Assembly (NCBI GenBank): GCA_030530145.1
Contig: JAUMVN010000004.1
Location: 1 to 64,000, forward strand
Reading direction: 5' to 3'
Source: Coriobacteriia bacterium
GTDB taxonomy: Bacteria > Actinomycetota > Coriobacteriia > Coriobacteriales > Atopobiaceae
DNA length: 64,000 nucleotides
Below the pieces are notes generated by a model. That model saw only the letters and a list, made by a program, of their open reading frames with translations, was not told the DNA's origin and made no database searches. The translations under genes and the position numbers were made by a program. Positions 5,639 to 38,918 of the stretch are shown here, piece by piece. Every line of letters starts with the position of its first letter. Position 1 is the first letter of the stretch.

Positions 5639-5800
5639 TGCAACTATTTTTCGGTTATGCGGCAAAAATCCGTCGTTTGGTTTAGTCTGAGCTCAGTTCG
5701 ACGGGCGTTACCTGCGGTTTTTGTAGGGAGACAGCCCTTTAGAGCGGCGATTACTCGGCATAAGGCCAAGAATCTGCCGCAGAGTCGTCATTTTGTTGCA
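5639..5800. repeat. Element A1: 162-bp element with terminal inverted repeats, 3' side of gene A
   Basis: Starts TGCAAC and ends GTTGCA. Both ends, read inwards, show the composite pattern TGCAAC(AAAA)-N9-TGCGGCA. A central block TTACCTGCGGTTTTT lies at 5708-5722, almost exactly mid-element. The same length and pattern recur in A2 (7018-7179), in the same orientation. The last 17 codons of gene A, with its stop, lie inside this element. Confidence 0.85.
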
Positions 5801-6881
5801 GGTCGATGCCGTCTAGCCGCTCGTCGAATCCAAAAATGCCGCCGTAATTGGTCAGCGGGGTGTCTATGAGTCTCATGAGCCTCACATGGAGCTGTGCCCT
5901 TTTCGTCTGGTGCTCGGTGGTGTCAAGCCGCTTGAGCCGCCGGCGCATCGGTGCGCCGAGCGACTCGGCCAACTTCGCCCCGATCTGTCGCCCGAGCAGC
6001 TCGGCCCTATCACTCGTGGATAGCGAGAGCTTGGTTGCCGAAATCACGGGTATGCCGATGGCCTGGATGTCGGCCACGCGCGCCTTGTCCTTCTCGACTT
6101 GGTCGCGCTCGTTGTGATAACCGCTGTCATATTCGACATCGAGCATTCCGTCCCAATAGATGTCGGGCATAAAGACGTCGCGCGCCGTGAGTCGTCGAAG
6201 GGACGCGGGGACGCATACCTCAACGTTGAGCACGGGTTTCGGGTATCCTCTGCCGCCGTACTGGGGTTTTAAGTACTGCTCGAGGGCGATGACCGCTTCG
6301 CGCGGTGAATAGGCGTTGTCGATGACCCATTGCGCCGCGGCTCGCGCTTGCTTTGATCCGAACATTCCGCTGGCTATTTCGATATGCGCGAGCAGCGAGT
6401 CACTGCTCGTAACGGGGTCGACGAGATACTCGCAGGTGGTCGACCCAACGCCTGGGTTTCGGTGGGCATATCTGCCGCAGAACTCCAAGCCGAGCAGAAC
6501 GAGTTGCTCGAAATCAAGCGACCGTGCCTTCTGGATGAAGTACTGCTCGAACGAGGGCACGAGGATATTGCCCGGAAGCTGCATAAGGGCCCCTGTCGGG
6601 AATTCCTGAGGGAACATGGAGAATTCGAACTCGCAGGAGCGTCCCCTGAGCTCGGGGGAGGTGACAGCGATTTGTAGCGGGTTGCTCGGAGTGATATCGA
6701 ATAGATGGGCGATAGGCCCGAAGTTAAAGCGGCGCAGGTCGGCAAGGCTGCTGACGCATGATTCGGGCGAAAGGGATCTCAAGTCGCAAGGCCGGGCGTA
6801 AAGGGAGCCTCCGCGTATTGCCCCCATTGCTATATCGAGGCTCTTCCCGGCGAGCATCACATATCTACCGTCCAAGTGCAC
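5751..6881 (-). CDS. Gene A: Vsr/DUF559-like (PD-(D/E)XK-type) nuclease-like protein, cassette A
   Basis: 376 residues from GTG 6881; the start aligns with that of homologue gene C (37595-38635), to which it is similar over nearly its whole length. N-terminal part (about 1-130) has no known domain; a middle part contains SLDFEQLVLLGLEFCGRYA. The C-terminal region has PDIYWDGMLDVEYDSGYHN followed by ERDQVEKDKAR and IPVISAT, the order of acidic and His residues seen in Vsr and DUF559 nucleases (D...VEYD..H...D..R). The last residues (from LQQNDD to the stop) are encoded by element A1. Base composition is visibly less GC-rich than neighbours, suggesting transfer. No partner gene is present. DNA cleavage is inferred from the motif only. 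Confidence 0.7.
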   Translation of the reverse strand: MHLDGRYVMLAGKSLDIAMGAIRGGSLYARPCDLRSLSPESCVSSLADLRRFNFGPIAHLFDITPSNPLQIAVTSPELRGRSCEFEFSMFPQEFPTGALMQLPGNILVPSFEQYFIQKARSLDFEQLVLLGLEFCGRYAHRNPGVGSTTCEYLVDPVTSSDSLLAHIEIASGMFGSKQARAAAQWVIDNAYSPREAVIALEQYLKPQYGGRGYPKPVLNVEVCVPASLRRLTARDVFMPDIYWDGMLDVEYDSGYHNERDQVEKDKARVADIQAIGIPVISATKLSLSTSDRAELLGRQIGAKLAESLGAPMRRRLKRLDTTEHQTKRAQLHVRLMRLIDTPLTNYGGIFGFDERLDGIDLQQNDDSAADSWPYAE

Positions 6882-7017
6882 CCCTCTCTATTATGTTTTG
6901 TGGGCGCAGTATGGCTTTGCGGGCGGTTGGCAGCGCAAGGAATTCGGCGGCGGTGCGGCGCGAATGCCATGAACGGGGCCGCCGTCTCGGAAATAGATGC
7001 CGTCCAGGATGGCTAGG
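6882..7017. other. Gene-less upstream region of gene A
   Basis: This stretch holds the upstream region of gene A. On the minus strand AATAGAGAGGGG lies directly before the GTG start, closer than a normal RBS. No terminator or clear promoter was found, so transcription of gene A may start in element A2 or just below it. Confidence 0.4.
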
Positions 7018-7179
7018 TGCAACAAAATTGCGGTTGTGCGGCAAAAATCTGTTGCTTTGTCGAGCCTAAGATTTGGTTAGCAAGACGCTACCTGCGGTTT
7101 TGTGGAGCCGCGGGCTTCCGGGGTGGTAATTACTCCGCATAGGTCTAGGAATTTGCCGCAGAAGCGTCGTTTTGTTGCA
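7018..7179. repeat. Element A2: 162-bp element with terminal inverted repeats, 5' side of gene A
   Basis: Same length and end pattern as A1: TGCAACAAAA-N9-TGCGGCAAA at the left, and its mirror image at the right end. Central block CTACCTGCGGTTTT at 7088-7101. Shared stretches with A1 include TGCGGCAAAAATC and the last 30 or so bases. Orientation is direct relative to A1. It contains no open frame of note. Confidence 0.85.
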
Positions 7180-28695: not shown

Positions 28696-28821
28696 CGTAA
28701 GTGAACATCTTGTTGTGGGAGTGACGAGTATCTAGAAACGTCGCATCACGTTTACCTGGGGTTTTACAGAGTGGGATGATGCTGCTGGGCGACCCCGATC
28801 GAATTAAGATGTTCACTTACG
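28696..28821. repeat. Element B1: 126-bp element with terminal inverted repeats, 3' side of gene B
   Basis: Perfect 16-bp terminal repeats CGTAAGTGAACATCTT (28696-28711) and its complement (28806-28821). Central block TTTACCTGGGGTTTTACA at 28751-28768. The stop of gene B (28813-28815) lies in the right repeat. B2 (30032-30160) shares TAAGTGAACATCTT ends and, in inverted orientation, the centre. Confidence 0.88.
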
Positions 28822-29982
28822 CGAGATTACGTCGGGGAGCGCCGACCAATCGACGAAAATCTCGGATCTGAGCCGCTTGGTCGCGTCAATCTGCTTATCG
28901 GTCTTGGGTTTGCGTTTGATATCGCGGGCAAGCGCGACCGCGTCGCAAAAGGCGTCGAATCGAGCGGGGTCTGTTAGCTGCGCATGCGTGAGCGGCAAGA
29001 CGCTGACGCCCATGAGCTGCAGCGCGGCTGCCCGCTCGGCATCCGAAAGAAAGCCGTCGAGGTTGTCGTGGTACTGCGCGCTTTGGCATTCGACGTCGAG
29101 CCCGTCCGGCCAATAGATGTCGCAGTAGCAGCACTGCCGCTGCCCGACGAGCTTGGCATCGCGGCTGAGTTCGACCTTCTCATTGTGCGAAAGGCCGTCG
29201 AATCCCTCGCCGCCCAAGTGTCGAGGAAGCCCAAGCAGTAAGCCAGCTTGCGTCTCGAAAGGCGAGGCCGCCAGGGGGACAACGGTCTCGGCCACCTTTC
29301 GAAGCGTGGCCGCGCCGCGATGGCCTTCCGCCGCTGCGGCCATCGCTCCAAGCTCTTCCGGCGTCGTTAGGGGGCCTCGCTGCCAAAGATCGGTTACCCT
29401 GCCTTCGCCGTCCAGGCAGGGCCTCCATCCCAGGAAGGACTTGAGCCTGCCGCGCGAGGCGATGCGCTGTAGCAGGAAGCGTATCGGCTCAGGCGCAGGA
29501 TAGACGGCGTAGCTCCCGCAGAGTTCCGAGGCGAGCAGCAACGCTTTGGTGAAGCCCTCCTGCGCAGCCATTTGCACCATGGTGAATGCGGGAGTCGTAA
29601 CCTCGAGGTCATCGGTCACGTCGCTGGTGGCCTCAAAGGGCAGCCCGCCGTTCCAGAATGTCGTGGAAATCAGGCCGGAAGAGCGCCTGGCCCCGCGTTC
29701 CTGCGCGAGGACGTCGAGTGGAAAAGTCGCCGACGGCGCGAGCAGCCACTGAGCGTCGCGGATATCCTTGGCGGCTTGGCTGACGTTTCGCCAAGAAGTC
29801 CCGGAACACTCGCGCATGAAAGGCAGTCTTTCTGCAAGTTCTGCCCTAAAAGCAAGGATTTCGTCTTCTCGGACGAATTTACGCAAAGCAGCGCTGTCCG
29901 CTGGCGCAGCGGCTAGGTGCAGGACTATCGGCGGTGTGCGCCAATAGCGGTAGGCAGTTGCTCCACAAAGCACGGTTTCCAT
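28813..29982 (-). CDS. Gene B: Vsr/DUF559-like nuclease-like protein, cassette B
   Basis: 389 residues from ATG 29982; there is no clear RBS. N-terminus METVLCGATAYRYWRTPPIV is of a type I recall from a large Coriobacteriia family with unknown function. A middle part has TPAFTMVQMAAQEGF and LLLASELCGSYA, parallel to SFEQYFIQKARSLDF and LLGLEFCGRYA of gene A. The nuclease-like core is DIYWPDGLDVECQSAQYHDN followed by SDAERAAALQLMGVSVLPLT; the Glu and His are kept, but the Asp of VEYD is replaced, so activity may be changed. It lies with its elements between scrR and scrA, and base composition is lower in GC than the operon around it. Confidence 0.68.
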   Translation of the reverse strand: METVLCGATAYRYWRTPPIVLHLAAAPADSAALRKFVREDEILAFRAELAERLPFMRECSGTSWRNVSQAAKDIRDAQWLLAPSATFPLDVLAQERGARRSSGLISTTFWNGGLPFEATSDVTDDLEVTTPAFTMVQMAAQEGFTKALLLASELCGSYAVYPAPEPIRFLLQRIASRGRLKSFLGWRPCLDGEGRVTDLWQRGPLTTPEELGAMAAAAEGHRGAATLRKVAETVVPLAASPFETQAGLLLGLPRHLGGEGFDGLSHNEKVELSRDAKLVGQRQCCYCDIYWPDGLDVECQSAQYHDNLDGFLSDAERAAALQLMGVSVLPLTHAQLTDPARFDAFCDAVALARDIKRKPKTDKQIDATKRLRSEIFVDWSALPDVISRK

Positions 29983-30031
29983 GGATAGACGTTACCACGG
30001 GGATGATGCGCGTTGGCTGGTGACGGTAAAT

Positions 30032-30160
30032 TCGATAAGTGAACATCTTGCCGTGGGACACCGCACTATAGAAGGTTTAGCGACTTACAAAACCGCAGTT
30101 CAACGAGTTGGCTAAATCGTGGATACTCGGCAGTCTCGAATTAAGATGTTCACTTATCGA
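30032..30160. repeat. Element B2: 129-bp element with terminal inverted repeats, 5' side of gene B
   Basis: Perfect 18-bp terminal repeats TCGATAAGTGAACATCTT (30032-30049) and complement (30143-30160). Centre 30085-30101 reads, on the minus strand, AACTGCGGTTTTGTAAG, so B2 is inverted relative to B1. The stop codon of scrR (30154-30156) lies in its right repeat. Confidence 0.88.
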
Positions 30161-31951: not shown

Positions 31952-32653
31952 GTGTCCTACATCGAGGTCATCCACGAGTACAAGCGCTACCAATCGGGCG
32001 CGACCGAGATCCTGGCCAACAACGACGTCAACTTCACCTGCGAGAAGGGCGAGCTCATCGTCATCCTCGGCTCTTCGGGTGCGGGCAAATCCACGATGCT
32101 CAACATCCTCGGCGGCATGGACACCGCGAGCGAGGGCCAGGTCATCATCGACGGCAACGACATCGCCCAGTACAACTCCCATCAGCTCACCGACTACCGC
32201 CGCACCGACGTCGGCTTCGTCTTCCAGTTCTACAACCTGGTGAGCAACCTCACGGCCAAGGAGAACGTCGAGCTCGCCTCCGAGATCGTGCGCGACGCGG
32301 CCGACCCCGAGGAGGTCCTGCGCAACGTCGGGCTCGCAGACCGCATGGCCAACTTCCCCGCGCAGCTCTCCGGCGGCGAGCAGCAGCGCGTCGCCATCGC
32401 CCGCGCCGTGGCCAAGAACCCGAAGATCCTGCTGTGCGACGAGCCTACGGGCGCCCTCGACTACCGCACGGGCAAGCAGGTCCTCGGCATCCTCGAGGAC
32501 ATGAGCCGCGAGCAGGGGGCGACCGTGATTATCGTCACGCACAACGCCGCCATCGCGCCCATCGCCGACCGCGTGATCCACATGCACGACGCGCGCGTTC
32601 AGTCCATCGACGTCAACGCCAAGCCGACGCCCATCGCCGACATCGAGTGGTAG
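31952..32653 (+). CDS. ABC transporter ATP-binding protein (MacB/LolD type)
   Basis: 233 residues from GTG 31952 (AAGGGAG upstream). Walker [10 protein letters not shown], signature LSGGEQQR, Walker [13 protein letters not shown], the His-switch VTHNA. The MacB/LolD class, which works with FtsX-type permeases by mechanotransmission or export from the outer leaflet. Only 11 bases separate it from the giant permease gene, with which it forms one operon under TetR. Confidence 0.92.
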
Positions 32654-32664
32654 GGGAGAGAAGA

Positions 32665-35600
32665 ATGTCGAACCGCAGGAAACCCACCCCGCGCGAGGGC
32701 GCGGCGCGGCCGGTCGCCGCCCGCGCGTCGGGGGCCTCTTACCCGAAGAACGGCAAGACAGCGCTCTGGAAGGACGTGTGGCGCTCGATCGCCCACTCCA
32801 AGGGACGCTTCGTGTCCATCATGCTGCTCATGGCGCTCGGCTCGTTCGCGCTCGTCGGCCTCTTCGTAGCCGGCCCGGACATGCGCGCCACGGGCGAGGC
32901 CTACTTCGGCGAGTATTCGCTCGCCGACCTCACCGTTCTGAGCGACTATGGCCTCGATGACGACGACGTCGCCGCCATCAACCAGGCGAGCGGCACGACG
33001 GCCATCGAATACGGTTACTTCAAGGACGTCACCGTCGACGGCTCCACGGACGCCGTGCGCGTGATGAGCATGCCCGACGAGGTCTCCCAGCTCGAGCTCG
33101 TCGACGGCCGCATGCCCGAGCGCGCCGGCGAGATCGCCGTCGACACCAACGTCGGCGAGCAGTACGCCATCGGCTCAACCATCCGCGTGAGCGAGAAGGC
33201 CAACGCCATCAGCGACGAGACCTGCTTAAACGACACCGAGTACACCGTGGTCGGCCACGTCCACACGCCCGAGATCATCTCCATCGTGAACATGGGCCAG
33301 TCGACGGCCGGCACGGGCAGCCTCAAGGGCTATGCCGTCGTCGTGGACGACGAGTTCGACTCCGACGTCTACATGACCGCGCGCATGACCTTCGAGGACA
33401 CCGAGGGCCTCGACCCCTACTCGAACGAGTACCGCGACCGCGTCCAGGACCACAAGTCCGAGGTCGAGGGGCTTATCGCCGATCGCCCGGCGGCGCGCCT
33501 CGCCACGGTCGTGGCCGACGCGCAGGTCTCCATCGACGACGGCCAGGCGGAGGTCGACGACGCCAAGCAGCGGCTCGCCGACGCCAAAGAGACTCTGGAC
33601 GACGCCGCCCAGACGCTCGCCGACGCCGCGGAGCAGCTCGCCGACGGCCAGGCCGAGATCGACGACGCCGAGGCGCGGATAACGGACGGCGAGGCGCAGA
33701 TCGCCGATGCCCAGGGCCAGATCGACGAGAGCCAGGCCACCCTAGATGCCGCCGCGGCGACAATCGCCGACGGCGAGGCGCAGCTCGCCGCCAAGGCCGG
33801 CGACCTCAGGTCCGCCGAGTCCCGGCTGACGGCCGCGAAGTCCCAGCTCGACGCCGCCAAGGCGACGCTCGACGAGAAGGCCCCGCAGGTCGCGGCGGCC
33901 GAGGCTCAGCTGCCCGCCGCCAAGCAGCGGCTCGCCGAGGGCCAGCGCGCCTATGACGAGGGCGCCGCCCAGCTCGAGGAGGCGAAGGCCCAGGTCCAGG
34001 CCTATGACGACGGCAGGGCGCAGCTCGACGCGGCCTACGCCGAGCTCGACGCCGGGCAGGCCGAGGTCGACGCCGGCCGCGCAGAGCTCGCCGAGAAGAC
34101 CGCCGAGCTCGACGCGGTGGCCGACCAGGCCGAGGCCGCCCGCGCCATGCTCGAGAAGCTCGACGACGCCGTGGCCTCCGCAACCCAGCAGGTGAGCGAG
34201 TCCGAGGCGCGGGTCGTCTCTCTCCAGGAGCAGATCGCCGCCGAGACCAACCCCGTGAAGAAGGCCGCTCTCGAGGCCGAGCTCGTGGCCGCTCAGGCCA
34301 AGCTCCAGGCCCAGCAGGCCTACCTGGCGCAGCTCCAGGCCAAGGCGGCCACCGACGAGGTGACCTCGGCCCGCGAGCAGGTCGCCCGGTACGACGCCGG
34401 TCGTGCGTCGGTCGCCGAGGCCACGGCCCGTCTCGACGAGGCGCAGCGGGGGATCGACGCCGGCCGCGCCGAGGCCGACGAAAAGAAGGCCCAGCTCGAC
34501 GCCGTTGCCGAGCAGGTCGAGGCCGGCCGTGCGGCGATTCCCCAGAAGGAGCAGGAGCTCGCCGCGGCAAAGGAGCAGCTCGACGCCGCGGCCGCGCAGA
34601 TAGCCGCCGCGGAGGCGGGAATCGCTTCTTACTATGAGGGGATCGCCACCTACCAGCAGGGCCTCGCGACCTATGCTGAGGGCTTGCAGTCCTACGAGAC
34701 CGGCCGCGCCGCGTTCAACGCCGCCGCCGACCAGCTCGCCTCGGGCAAGGCTGAGTACGCCTCCGGCGCCGCGACCCTCGCCGCCGCCCGCGAGACCCTC
34801 GCCTCCAAGGTCGACGAGCTTGCTTCCGCCAAGACCCAGGTGGCCGAAGCCAAGCAGACCCTCGCCGAGAAGCTCGCCGAGTACAACGATGGCCTCTCCG
34901 AGTACGAGGACGGCCTCGCCGAGTACAACGACGAGCTGCCCGATGCGCAGCGGAAGATCGCCGACGGCGAGTCCGACCTCGCCGACGCCCGCGCCCGCCT
35001 GGCCAAGCTCTCCACGCCCGTCTACGAGGCGGACACGCGCCGCGAGACCCTGGGGTCGGAGGCGTACAAGACCTACGACACCGTCTCCGAGATCATCGAC
35101 TCGCTGGCGACCGTCTTCCCCGTGCTTCTCTATCTCGTGGCCGCGTTCGTCACGCTCTCGACCATCACCCGCATGGTCGAGGAGGAGCGCATCAACTCCG
35201 GCACGCTCAAGGCGCTCGGCTACCGCGACGGCGACGTCGCCCTCAAGTTCGTGCTCTACGGCGCGCTCGCCGGCGGCATCGGCTCGGTCGCGGGCATCGC
35301 GCTCGGCCACACCCTGCTGCCCTACATCGTGTACAACGCCTACGGCGCCAAGTTCACGCTGCCCCCGATCCACCTCGGCTTCTACCCGGTGATCACCCTG
35401 GTCGCCATCGTGCTTGCCGGCCTGTGCGCGGTCCTTCCCGCGGGCGTCGCCGTTCGCCGCGAGCTCGGCGAGAAACCCGCCGCGCTGCTTCTTCCCAAGC
35501 CTCCCTCGGGCGGCTCGAAGATCATGCTCGAGCGCATCGCCCCGCTGTGGAGCCGCATGAGCTTCACCCACAAGGTCACGGCGCGCAATCTCTTCCGCTA

Positions 35601-36705
35601 CAAGCAGCGCATGCTCATGACCATCCTCGGCGTGGCCGGCGCCACCTGCATGCTCGTCGCGGGCTTCGGCGTCCAGCACTCCATCCAGGAGATGGCCTCC
35701 AAGCAGTTCGGCGCCATCCTCAAGTACGACATGATCGTGGCGCAGAACTCGACCGCCACTGACGACCAGCTCGCCGAGCTCGACGACGCGCTCGCCGGAG
35801 ACGAGGTGGCCTCCGAGGTCGCGCTTCACTACGAGTCCGTGAGCCTTACCGCCGGCGCGAACAACGACAAGCAGGAGATCACCCTGCTCGTGCCGGAGCA
35901 GTCCTCCGACCTCGATGAGTATCTCGACCTGCACGACCGCAAGAGCGGCGAGAAGCTCGAGCTCGAAGGCGACGGCGCCGTGATCAGCGAGCGCCTGGCC
36001 ACTCTGCTCGGCGTGGGCGTGGGCGACGAGGTCGAGTTCACCGCCTCCGACGGCAGCTCTCGCACCGTCCGCGTCTCCGGTGTGTGCGAGATGTACATGG
36101 GCCACTTCATGGTCATGAGCCATGAGGCGTACGAGTCCTGCTACGGGGAGGGCTTCGAGGCCAACGCCGCCATGGTCAGGCTGAAGGACGGCACGCTCTC
36201 CTCGGTCGAGAACGCGGCTTCCGGCTTCATGGAGCTCAAGGGCGTCAAGTCCGTGGTCCAGAACACGACTCTGCAGTCCCAGGTCGACACGGTCGTGACC
36301 TCGCTCAACAAGATCATGGGCATCCTGATCCTCGTCGCCAGCATGCTCGCCGTGGTCATCATGTACAACCTGACGAACATCAACGTCTCCGAGCGCATGC
36401 GCGAGCTCTCGACCATCAAGGTCCTCGGTTTCCACTCCAACGAGACCACGATGTACATCTACCGCGAGACGATCATCCTCACGGCTCTCGGCCTCGTCGC
36501 GGGCTGGCTGCTGGGCATCGCGCTGCACCAGTACATCCTGAACGTCGTCCCGCCCGACAACGTCATGTTCAACCCGGCGCTGGCCCCGATCGAGTTCATC
36601 GTGCCCGCCGTCGTCATCAGCGCGATCACCGTGGTGCTCTACTTCGTCGAGCTCCGCCGCCTCTCGACGGTGGACATGCTCGAAGCGCTGAAGTCCGTGG
36701 AGTAA
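32665..36705 (+). CDS. Giant FtsX-type ABC permease with a large extracellular coiled coil
   Basis: 1346 residues from ATG 32665 (GGGGAGAGAAGA upstream). A charged N-terminus and first span (about 48-70) lead to an extracellular domain, then a coiled coil from about 275 to 780 made of variants of the pattern AQLDAAYAELDAGQAEVDAG. Two FtsX domains follow (spans near 815-960 and 983-1340). Members with such coils are typical of Firmicutes and Actinobacteria (YfhG/SalY-like), where the extracellular part is thought to reach through the wall. Substrate unknown. Encoded with the ATPase at 31952-32653. Confidence 0.9.
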   Translation: MSNRRKPTPREGAARPVAARASGASYPKNGKTALWKDVWRSIAHSKGRFVSIMLLMALGSFALVGLFVAGPDMRATGEAYFGEYSLADLTVLSDYGLDDDDVAAINQASGTTAIEYGYFKDVTVDGSTDAVRVMSMPDEVSQLELVDGRMPERAGEIAVDTNVGEQYAIGSTIRVSEKANAISDETCLNDTEYTVVGHVHTPEIISIVNMGQSTAGTGSLKGYAVVVDDEFDSDVYMTARMTFEDTEGLDPYSNEYRDRVQDHKSEVEGLIADRPAARLATVVADAQVSIDDGQAEVDDAKQRLADAKETLDDAAQTLADAAEQLADGQAEIDDAEARITDGEAQIADAQGQIDESQATLDAAAATIADGEAQLAAKAGDLRSAESRLTAAKSQLDAAKATLDEKAPQVAAAEAQLPAAKQRLAEGQRAYDEGAAQLEEAKAQVQAYDDGRAQLDAAYAELDAGQAEVDAGRAELAEKTAELDAVADQAEAARAMLEKLDDAVASATQQVSESEARVVSLQEQIAAETNPVKKAALEAELVAAQAKLQAQQAYLAQLQAKAATDEVTSAREQVARYDAGRASVAEATARLDEAQRGIDAGRAEADEKKAQLDAVAEQVEAGRAAIPQKEQELAAAKEQLDAAAAQIAAAEAGIASYYEGIATYQQGLATYAEGLQSYETGRAAFNAAADQLASGKAEYASGAATLAAARETLASKVDELASAKTQVAEAKQTLAEKLAEYNDGLSEYEDGLAEYNDELPDAQRKIADGESDLADARARLAKLSTPVYEADTRRETLGSEAYKTYDTVSEIIDSLATVFPVLLYLVAAFVTLSTITRMVEEERINSGTLKALGYRDGDVALKFVLYGALAGGIGSVAGIALGHTLLPYIVYNAYGAKFTLPPIHLGFYPVITLVAIVLAGLCAVLPAGVAVRRELGEKPAALLLPKPPSGGSKIMLERIAPLWSRMSFTHKVTARNLFRYKQRMLMTILGVAGATCMLVAGFGVQHSIQEMASKQFGAILKYDMIVAQNSTATDDQLAELDDALAGDEVASEVALHYESVSLTAGANNDKQEITLLVPEQSSDLDEYLDLHDRKSGEKLELEGDGAVISERLATLLGVGVGDEVEFTASDGSSRTVRVSGVCEMYMGHFMVMSHEAYESCYGEGFEANAAMVRLKDGTLSSVENAASGFMELKGVKSVVQNTTLQSQVDTVVTSLNKIMGILILVASMLAVVIMYNLTNINVSERMRELSTIKVLGFHSNETTMYIYRETIILTALGLVAGWLLGIALHQYILNVVPPDNVMFNPALAPIEFIVPAVVISAITVVLYFVELRRLSTVDMLEALKSVE

Positions 36706-37260: not shown

Positions 37261-37298
37261 ACCTCGTGAGCACAGACGGCCGATGCCTGCTCGAAAAC

Positions 37299-37442
37299 TC
37301 GAGGTCCTGCGTATGCTGTTTAATAGTTGATGGCCCTGCGCGCATATGCCAACTGGGAAAACGTCGCTCATGCGACCATCTGCGAGCCTCTGTCCGTCGC
37401 TGATACTCGGGTGGATGCCCGAAATCCCACGCAGAATCTCGA
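37299..37442. repeat. Element C1: 144-bp element with terminal inverted repeats, 5' side of gene C
   Basis: Left end TCGAGGTCCTGCG and right end CGCAGAATCTCGA pair at 11 of 13 positions. The reverse complement of C2 (38689-38832) lines up with it, with shared blocks GCGCAT, GCCAAC and GCAGAATCT and the same length. AATAATGATCA adjoins its right end, and the mirror sequence adjoins C2. Together with the hairpin below, it fills the 334-bp gap before gene C. Confidence 0.68.
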
Positions 37443-37455
37443 AATAATGATCAAG

Positions 37456-37495
37456 GCGGGCCCTTGGGCGCCGAACACGGCGCCCAAGGGCCCGC
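37456..37495. terminator. Long hairpin between element C1 and gene C
   Basis: Perfect 17-bp arms 37456-37472 and 37479-37495 with a 6-base loop. No U-tract on the plus strand; on the minus strand it is followed by TTGATCATTATTTC and then C1. It insulates gene C from upstream transcription or marks the cassette border. Confidence 0.7.
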
Positions 37496-37594
37496 TTAAC
37501 GTGCGTATGCGATCCTCCCCGCGTCGCTTGGCGAATCTTCGCGTCCCGCAGAGCTCCGCGTGCTAAAGTCGGCCTCCACGAGAAAGGGGGCCCG

Positions 37595-38635
37595 ATGACG
37601 GAGAAGGTGCTGGTACTCGCCGGAAAGACGCTCGACAAGGTGATGCCCGCTATAAGGTTGGGGCGACTGCGCGCGGAGCCGACGGACCTTCGCCGCCTCG
37701 ACCCGGGGTCCTGCGCCTGCAGGGTCGAGGACGTCCTCTCCATCAATCTCGGCCCCCTTGCGTACTTTTGCGACGCGAGCGAGTCGGATCCGCTGCATGT
37801 CGCGGTGAGCGCCCCCGGGCTGAGGCGCGACCTGCGCGGGTTCGAGTTCTCGCTCTTTCCAGAGGAGTTCCCGGCGGGGACGCTCATGGCCATCAGCCCG
37901 AATATCCTCGTCCCCTCGTTCCCCGCGTACTTCATGCTCAAGGCCCGGGACCTTGACTTCGAGGAGCTGCTGCTCCTTGGAATGGAGCTTTGCGGAACCT
38001 ATGCTCATGACTCGTATACGCGCGCCGACGGGCGCTGCGAGTTCCTTGTGGAGCCGGCGCTCGAGGCTGACGACCTGCGTGGATACCTCGAGGAAGCGAC
38101 CGGCATCAAGGGAGTCAACCCTGCGAAGACGGCCGCCTCCTGGATATTGGACAACTCCTACTCTCCACAGGAGACCATTCTTGCGCTTGAGCAGTATCTC
38201 AAGCCGATGCGAGGTGGTCGTGGCTACCCGAAGCCGCGGCTTAACCCCGAGATCGAGGTGCCGCGTGAGTTTCGGCGCCTAACGGCCCGGGATACCTTCA
38301 AGCCCGACATCTATTGGGAGGGGATGCTCGATCTCGAGTACGACAGCGCCTATCACAGCGACCCCGCGCAGGTGGAGCGGGACAAAGCCCGCGCGTCCGA
38401 TGTACAGGCCCTCGGCATTCCTGTCATTCAGGCGACCGGCCTCTCGCTTTCCACCTGTGAGAGGGCGGAGCTCCTCGGCCGTCAGATAGGCAAAGCCCTT
38501 GAGACTGGGATGGGGCGCCCTATGACTATGCGGCTGCGCCGGCTCTATGCGCCCGAGCTGCAGGAGCGCCGCGACCGACTTCACCTTAAGCTCCGGAGGC
38601 TGAGCGGGCTCGACGGCGGGCGCCGTGCACGTTAG
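37595..38635 (+). CDS. Gene C: Vsr/DUF559-like nuclease-like protein, cassette C
   Basis: 346 residues from ATG 37595 with AAAGGGGG upstream. Similar to gene A along its length: VLVLAGKTLDKVMPAIRLG, FEFSLFPEEFPAGTLM, NILVPSFPAYFMLKARDLDF, LGMELCGTYAHD, SYSPQETILALEQYLKPMRG. The nuclease-like core PDIYWEGMLDLEYDSAYHSD is complete (D, E, D, H), followed by VERDKARASDVQALGIPVIQAT. Ends before C2 and a small terminator, unlike A and B. GC content is nearer to that of neighbours, which may point to an older insertion. Confidence 0.72.
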   Translation: MTEKVLVLAGKTLDKVMPAIRLGRLRAEPTDLRRLDPGSCACRVEDVLSINLGPLAYFCDASESDPLHVAVSAPGLRRDLRGFEFSLFPEEFPAGTLMAISPNILVPSFPAYFMLKARDLDFEELLLLGMELCGTYAHDSYTRADGRCEFLVEPALEADDLRGYLEEATGIKGVNPAKTAASWILDNSYSPQETILALEQYLKPMRGGRGYPKPRLNPEIEVPREFRRLTARDTFKPDIYWEGMLDLEYDSAYHSDPAQVERDKARASDVQALGIPVIQATGLSLSTCERAELLGRQIGKALETGMGRPMTMRLRRLYAPELQERRDRLHLKLRRLSGLDGGRRAR

Positions 38636-38654
38636 CAGGCGCCGAACAGGGCTC

Positions 38655-38675
38655 GGAAGCCCGATTTGGGCTTCC
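38655..38675 (+). terminator. Hairpin after gene C
   Basis: GGAAGCCC-GATTT-GGGCTTCC (38655-38662, 38668-38675), 20 bases past the stop, followed by GGTGATCATTATTTC, which adjoins element C2. Confidence 0.7.
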
Positions 38676-38688
38676 GGTGATCATTATT

Positions 38689-38832
38689 TCTAGATTCTGC
38701 TTGCCAAAACGGGCCCTTTAGAGGGTACTGGCCCGCCCTCTGAGTCGCCAATAGCGGTCGTGCGTGGAGTTTGCCCTGTTGGCGATTGGGATGCGCTGTA
38801 TCAAAACCTGAATAAGGCAAGCAGAATCTCGA
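38689..38832. repeat. Element C2: 144-bp element with terminal inverted repeats, 3' side of gene C
   Basis: TCTAGATTCTGCTTGCC (38689-38705) and its near-perfect complement (38816-38832), 16 of 17 positions. It is inverted relative to C1. Interior includes a partial dyad (TCGCCAA / TTGGCGA). TGATCATTATT adjoins its left end, mirroring AATAATGATCA beside C1. Confidence 0.78.
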
Positions 38833-38918
38833 TTTTTTGAGCACGGGGACGCTCCAAGCGACCGTCGGCCGCGGGCGGGTGGATACAATTGCCGTATCCC
38901 CACGAGAAAGGACGAGCC

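Follow-up and report, generated by a model that had tools for sequence, protein, structure and literature searches.

Predicted Vsr/EDxHD-fold nucleases and their matched palindromic elements in Coriobacteriales

Comparison of Coriobacteriales genomes shows, as far as can be judged from sequence, a recurrent partnership between a family of predicted Vsr/EDxHD-fold nucleases and families of dispersed palindromic elements: the nuclease gene has a flanking pair of elements, solo elements occur together with the cognate gene, the TIRs of the elements change along with the protein, the arms of the solos carry the variant of the resident gene, and the putative catalytic core of the protein is conserved. 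The reading that we consider probable is that a resident nuclease recognizes, homogenizes and in all likelihood also spreads its own palindromic family, in a manner reminiscent of the REPIN-RAYT systems, to which it is unrelated. From the patterns described below, we infer the activities that this would involve: DNA binding, a nick or cut at the site, recombination among the copies and, now and then, a new insertion. This nuclease-palindrome partnership looks like an undescribed 'selfish-element' system, whose enzyme, active by prediction, is unlike that of any known one. The initial annotation of this DNA knew of no such nuclease-element family, and our literature search of open-access PMC papers (most subscription journals being outside its scope) likewise found no description of one.

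Three cassettes of this kind were found in the window, i.e. the whole 64-kb stretch of DNA that was analyzed: cassette A (5639-7179), cassette C (28698-30156) and cassette B (37288-38843). Their features are listed in Table 1. The two elements of cassette A are of exactly equal length, as originally noted, and 65% identical in an ungapped comparison, whereas the identity of 162-mers drawn from the window in 5000 random pairs averages 28% and is 47.5% at most. They also have the reported common center, AAAACCGCAGGTA. The window has four copies of the motif TGCAAC-N13-TGCGGCA, one at each end of A1 and of A2; the chance expectation is 0.06 occurrences per window, and a count of four was reached in none of 100 shuffles. 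The initial annotation had described these ends more narrowly as TGCAAC(AAAA)-N9-TGCGGCA: TGCAAC and TGCGGCA are indeed found at all four, but AAAA follows TGCAAC in only three, the left arm of A1 having TATT instead. It had also placed gene A between the elements, which is correct insofar as A1 and A2 flank it, but the last 50 nt of the gene lie inside A1. The pattern of cassette A is not a product of chance, because the window also holds cassettes B and C, which are similarly built but have other end sequences.

Table 1. Coordinates of the elements and nuclease genes of the three cassettes in the window.
Feature	Start	End	Strand	Description
Element A1	5639	5800	.	162 bp; TIR TGCAAC-N13-TGCGGCA; includes the 3' end of gene A
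Gene A	5751	6881	minus	376 aa (376-codon ORF); predicted Vsr/EDxHD-fold nuclease
Element A2	7018	7179	.	162 bp; same TIR and same direction as A1
Element C1	28698	28819	.	122 bp; TIR TAAGTGAACATCTT
Gene C	28813	29982	minus	389 aa; gene A family; mean pLDDT 92; C-terminal Vsr/EDxHD fold (model)
Element C2	30036	30156	.	121 bp; TIR TAAGTGAACATCTT
Element B1	37288	37453	.	166 bp; TIR about TGMTCR...TCGAGATTCTGCG; solos of equal length exist
Gene B	37595	38635	plus	346 aa; 56% identity to gene A
Element B2	38678	38843	.	166 bp

These cassettes are part of a larger set. The host genome (2.47 Mb) has 14 genes of the nuclease family (15 matches, two of them within one ORF), and at least 12 of the 14 lie within a matched palindromic pair of elements of ~70-200 bp; ten of these pairs were recognized by a palindrome-pair score, and inspection added those of L014 and of L015, the latter with tandem arrays. 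Of the two genes that remain, one is located at a contig end and one has no pair. Each pair has a TIR sequence and a length peculiar to its gene. An element search in the same genome retrieved one solo of the A type, at least four of the B type (165-166 bp) and three of the C type, as well as seven of the L009 type (139-140 bp), two or three of the L006 type, five of the L003 type (~116 bp) and one of the L014 type. Within a type, solos are of constant length and stand in unrelated flanks, as exemplified by the seven L009-type copies. The window also contains tandem 21-bp-periodic repeats (33512-34642) in an ORF for a permease-like protein with a coiled-coil region (32434-36705), which are an ordinary protein repeat.

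The structure model of the gene A product has a mean pLDDT of 81 (that of gene C, 92) and ends in a low-confidence tail of ~33 residues. Its C-terminal domain (about residues 190-310) matches the EDxHD homing endonuclease I-Bth0305I (3r3p) with a Z score of 10.4, 3hrl with 9.7, and Vsr with 8.7 (1cw0, Vsr-DNA) and 7.7 (1vsr); the corresponding domain of gene C reaches 10.1 with 3r3p, 8.1 with 3hrl, 8.6 with 1cw0 and about 7 with TnsA. Judged by these models, the C-terminal domain is a PD-(D/E)XK nuclease fold of the Vsr/EDxHD kind with a conserved E/D/H/D core, as the initial annotation had proposed in calling the protein Vsr-like. The D...VEYD..H...D..R core on which that proposal was based is present in gene A, and E195, D240, E250, H256, D265 and R268 (gene A numbering) are invariant or nearly so in the family. 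As to the accompanying label 'DUF559-like', Pfam DUF559 matches one of 13 members (9e-6) and MTES_1575 three (best 7e-4); neither matches gene A. When a family profile was compared with the PDB (hmmsearch), 3r3p was the sole match at E<0.001 (E 5.6e-4), whereas an NCBIfam search returned nothing usable. In the fold searches, the matches listed were taken up by the nuclease domain; the fold assignment is for the C-terminal part of the protein.

The closest structural relatives differ from these proteins in context. I-Bth0305I shares the catalytic fold and the E..D..H..D residues, and it is reported to bind as a dimer to DNA over almost 60 bp (PMC3943268), a mode that would suit long inverted half-sites, as in the long palindromes described here; the present nucleases, by contrast, are not intron-borne, and have dispersed elements around them that match them. 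The Vsr mismatch endonuclease has the same fold, but the present genes come without a mismatch-repair context, encode a large N-terminal region and form a multi-copy family. Likewise, TnsA of Tn7 (1f1z, 1t0f) has a similar nuclease fold and uses it in transposition, but its TnsB/C partners and Tn7 ends were not seen here.

Across types, the elements have a common build: their TIRs are type-specific and ~20-28 nt long, many of them have GAGTAG...CTACTC as an inner pair, and a center akin to AAAACCGCAGGT is located near the midpoint. At least ten of the 12 positions of this center are matched in 29% of 48 elements and in 1.6% of shuffles, a descriptive comparison rather than an independent test, since the motif was picked from the same 48 elements. 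In the flank of L051 (G000:C31 near 31729), an L009-type solo is adjoined by yet another type of element, whose ends are AACTCCTGAGAATGTACGATTG and which also has these GAGTAG boxes. In the genome G088, all but one of the 20 solos have a length of exactly 142 bp, with 24-nt TIRs that are mostly 95-100% conserved and a GAGTAGAC box at positions 39-46; no target duplication was seen at their flanks. Several of the G088 solos (L156, L165, L166, L168, L172 and L174) lie inside a larger common flank (CAGTAACAGTGGGTTACT...GTCAGA / TCTCCCGACGG), as though they were part of another repeat or had been duplicated along with it.

In the variable regions of 19 G088 copies, the one element type for which this comparison was made, arm pairing within elements (0.59/0.45/0.29) is no higher than across elements (0.62/0.52/0.50), and no compensatory changes between the arms were found. 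With arms that do not covary, the sites therefore look as if they are read as duplex DNA half-sites and not selected as hairpins. This bears on the idea of an RNA-level system, either a type III toxin-antitoxin or an RNA-guided one, in which the elements would be transcribed structured RNAs. While the long palindromes adjoin and overlap the gene and their conserved center would fall into the loop of such an RNA, the lack of covariation, the resemblance of the conserved blocks to duplex half-sites and an Rfam scan without a match make this, in our estimate, the most improbable of the alternatives considered here.

Hairpins are also central to a second alternative, in which the elements would be REPINs in disguise, moved as single-stranded DNA by a RAYT, i.e. 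a HUH tyrosine transposase, with the nuclease gene as a passenger. The layout of a gene with flanking palindromes, the single Y1_Tnp gene of the host genome and the GAGTAG box, which recalls the GTAG tags of REP sequences, are all in keeping with this; but G077 and G174 have both cassettes and elements, with no Y1_Tnp (PF01797) match, a single Y1 gene hardly explains at least ten types of TIR, arm pairing is not elevated within elements, and the TIR follows the nuclease. We thus regard a RAYT as a very improbable mover. What stands of the comparison with REP sequences and RAYTs made in the initial annotation is the analogy; another enzyme is at work here, and it recognizes its sites in another way. 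In both cases, a resident, vertically inherited single gene is flanked by elements, dispersed non-autonomous palindromes are tied to the presence of the gene, and the ends are conserved while the middle is variable, with no target duplication seen. Two features that define REPIN-RAYT differ, however: the partner is a Vsr/EDxHD-fold nuclease here and a HUH Y1 transposase in the RAYT case, and the elements here appear free of a hairpin constraint (as far as the G088 type is concerned). They also measure ~70-200 bp, with type-specific TIRs of 20-28 nt and an internal box. REP units span 20-40 nt with a GTAG/CGTC tag at the foot; in the present elements, GTAG is seen inside the internal GAGTAG box. 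Lastly, each genome here contains many paralogous pairs with 1-25+ copies each.

The link between elements and genes is also apparent across genomes. A search of 20 genomes for the elements of five cassettes showed that four of the five families are clearly present in multiple copies, in each case solely in the genome that has the cognate gene, with full-length solos numbering at least about 25 in G088 (L087), 15 in G142 (L099), 13 in G249 (L117) and 6 in G054 (L088); the fifth family, L092 (G142), has at most one solo. Among the other genomes of this search, three gave one weak match each and 13 gave none. The initial annotation had suggested looking for the elements outside the cassette, and elements of these families are indeed found elsewhere, both as solos and beside homologs of the gene in many genomes. 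Over 34 cassettes, the more alike the proteins are, the more similar are their TIRs (rho 0.21, Mantel p 0.0007), a coupling over the whole family that is significant but modest, and both the N-terminal (rho 0.14) and the C-terminal (rho 0.25) parts of the protein correlate with the TIR. For instance, an Olsenella gene with 42% identity to L009 has nearly the same TIR as L009.

The evidence is strongest within one genus, where this coupling can be followed in finer steps and in which five of nine species have a nuclease ortholog in the same gene neighborhood, at 62-98% identity between that of G260 and those of the other four. All five keep the flanking pair, and in their TIRs GCA-N-CAAACTCCG precedes a stretch that varies with the species, namely CGCGA in G174, G260 and G313, CGATA in G308 and CGTTA in G309, a graded set of variants over these syntenic orthologs. 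The solos carry mostly the variant of the resident gene: CGCGA is found in 24 of 24 solo arms in G174, 17 of 20 in G260 and 18 of 24 in G313 (a set that includes two copies adjoining the gene), and CGATA in 16 of 18 in G308. These sets were gathered with each species' own query, a bias that reciprocal searches limit but do not remove; a CGCGA-type query gave at most one weak match in G308, and a CGATA-type query none in G174 and one weak match in G260. G309 has the gene and almost no solos.

Orthologous solo sites are especially instructive. A solo between scpB and rluB, which lies directly past the scpB stop codon and is clearly intergenic, is shared by four species (G174, G260, G313 and G308) and missing from at least four others (G309, G312, G307 and G310). 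At this site and at L191, G308 and G313 have orthologous copies with middles that are 79% and 77% identical, while both arms differ jointly; the arms in G308 are of the resident variant, whereas those in G313 are CGCCA and CAGTA and not the resident CGCGA, as if these two old copies had not yet been replaced by it. Given that both arms change in parallel and that most copies share the resident variant, the TIRs therefore undergo concerted evolution, either via conversion or via selection for binding. That the nuclease recognizes its own elements, as the initial annotation had inferred, is in our view well supported by sequence comparison, namely by the covariation of TIR and protein and by the species-matched variants at orthologous solos.

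The same data speak to a third alternative, that the elements are MITEs of an unrecognized DDE-type transposon which captured the gene as cargo, in the manner of a mobile insertion cassette. Short, dispersed TIR elements of 110-165 bp that are paired round a gene would be expected from such an origin. However, every type is paired with the same gene family, the pairing holds across species at 62-98% identity, the nuclease covaries with its TIR, target duplications are not seen (G088 flanks), no parental DDE transposon was seen (the transposase search having covered Y1), and the cassette position is fixed while solos vary (the L111-type cassette is at an unchanged position across five species), so that we consider a cargo gene highly unlikely.

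Differences between genomes extend to whole cassettes. A comparison with relatives lacking cassette A, which had been proposed as a check, found the arsR-xpt junction without it in G077, which has a solo of the same build but of another type there, and in the congener G296, which has a different palindrome; the arsR-xpt gap may therefore be an insertion hot spot. The palindrome in G296 (L126, G296:C1:603213-603535; CGCAAATTGGGGACGTGTTC...GAACACGTCCCCAATTTGCG) is unrelated and perhaps a RAYT-linked REPIN. Likewise, both G077 and G300 lack cassette C at the syntenic junction. No exact empty site bearing a target duplication was recovered at the compared interspecies junctions, where intergenic sequences have diverged too far for the cassette boundaries to show.

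Species-matched TIRs could also be explained by selection for binding, without mobility or conversion. This leads to the main rival explanation, a binding-site regulon: a regulatory or defense nuclease with cognate sites that serve as operators, terminators, decoys or self-marks and are kept by selection, not spread by the nuclease. Several observations are compatible with it. Some elements are clearly intergenic, such as the scpB-rluB solo; the distance from the gene to its flanking copies is in many cases about 0-230 bp, which would suit autoregulation; each genome has many paralogs; and relatives elsewhere in Actinomycetota match mainly in the C-terminal nuclease part. On the other hand, constant-length copies in unrelated flanks and their presence or absence at orthologous sites demand a copying process, copy number and sites differ from genome to genome, and a PADLOC scan for anti-phage defense gave no match (best E 0.04). 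While this makes a regulon without mobility unlikely in our judgment, it deserves more weight than any of the other alternatives. The suggestion of the initial annotation that the protein moves or maintains its elements thus receives indirect support from the dispersed constant-length copies, their presence and absence and their concerted evolution, whereas nicking and transposition would be predicted activities.

To assess how widespread the family is, we sampled 296 Actinomycetota genomes. Strong, near-full-length homologs occur only in the order Coriobacteriales, usually several per genome, and the remaining Actinomycetota of the sample yield weaker matches, chiefly to the C-terminal nuclease part. 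At a threshold score of ≤16, 25 of 54 family genes have a matched element pair, compared to none of 29 control ORFs, all taken from this window; about half of the tested family genes are thus without a detectable pair. Of the named loci, 6 of 21 have pairs, including Thermophilibacter provencensis and Olsenella, while none of the Collinsella and Enorma loci tested does. No family match was found in phage records, and two Collinsella entries among the plasmid records contain part of the gene. One circular Collinsella record of 1785 bp (NZ_OY725722.1) was considered as an excised circle and rejected, as it contains a truncated gene and an IS21-like-looking fragment, with no matched elements.

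In the mechanism that we favor, that of a resident nuclease acting on its own palindromes, the protein, probably a dimer, would bind duplex DNA at the inverted pair of half-sites that its element contains, with the bound site comprising the TIR of about 24 nt and the internal GAGTAG box, in elements with a AAAACCGCAGGT-type center. It would then nick or cut at the element, and repair and recombination with other copies would homogenize the elements and occasionally put new copies into intergenic DNA. Binding at the flanking copies may also control the nuclease gene. More broadly, we lean toward the view that Vsr/EDxHD nucleases of the homing-endonuclease type act as in-trans mobility and homogenization factors of duplex-recognized palindromes throughout Coriobacteriales, with about a dozen orthogonal enzyme-site pairs in one genome, and that whole element populations are rewritten as enzyme specificity drifts; we hold this with somewhat less confidence than the reading for the single nuclease and its family.

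If true, the REPIN-RAYT partnership would not be unique, as a second, unrelated fold would have evolved the same combination of a resident enzyme and dispersed palindromes, and a class of dispersed intergenic repeats in Coriobacteriales genomes would be explained. The hosts are abundant human-gut bacteria, in which the genes of this nuclease family have no functional name. With many natural enzyme-site pairs and solos that track the local enzyme, such systems make protein-DNA co-evolution directly testable, and they would also supply an existing panel of orthogonal nucleases with long sites, which may find practical use.

Three further observations concern individual loci. In the genus of G174, nuclease orthologs of different species (L220-L223) have ~69% DNA identity, whereas the adjoining flank on one side is 95-97% identical between those species; the gene therefore diversifies unusually fast for its locus. 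The pairs at L117 (G249) and L087 (G088) are inverted copies with 89-90% identity, whereas the pair of cassette A is direct, and since these flanking copies are near-identical and inverted, inversion of the intervening gene is conceivable. Finally, tandem half-site arrays, made for example of repeated GACGGTTGCAGCA or GCCACAAA units, replace the single palindromes at L015, L012, L100, L101 and L109, possibly as a different state of the same nuclease-element system.
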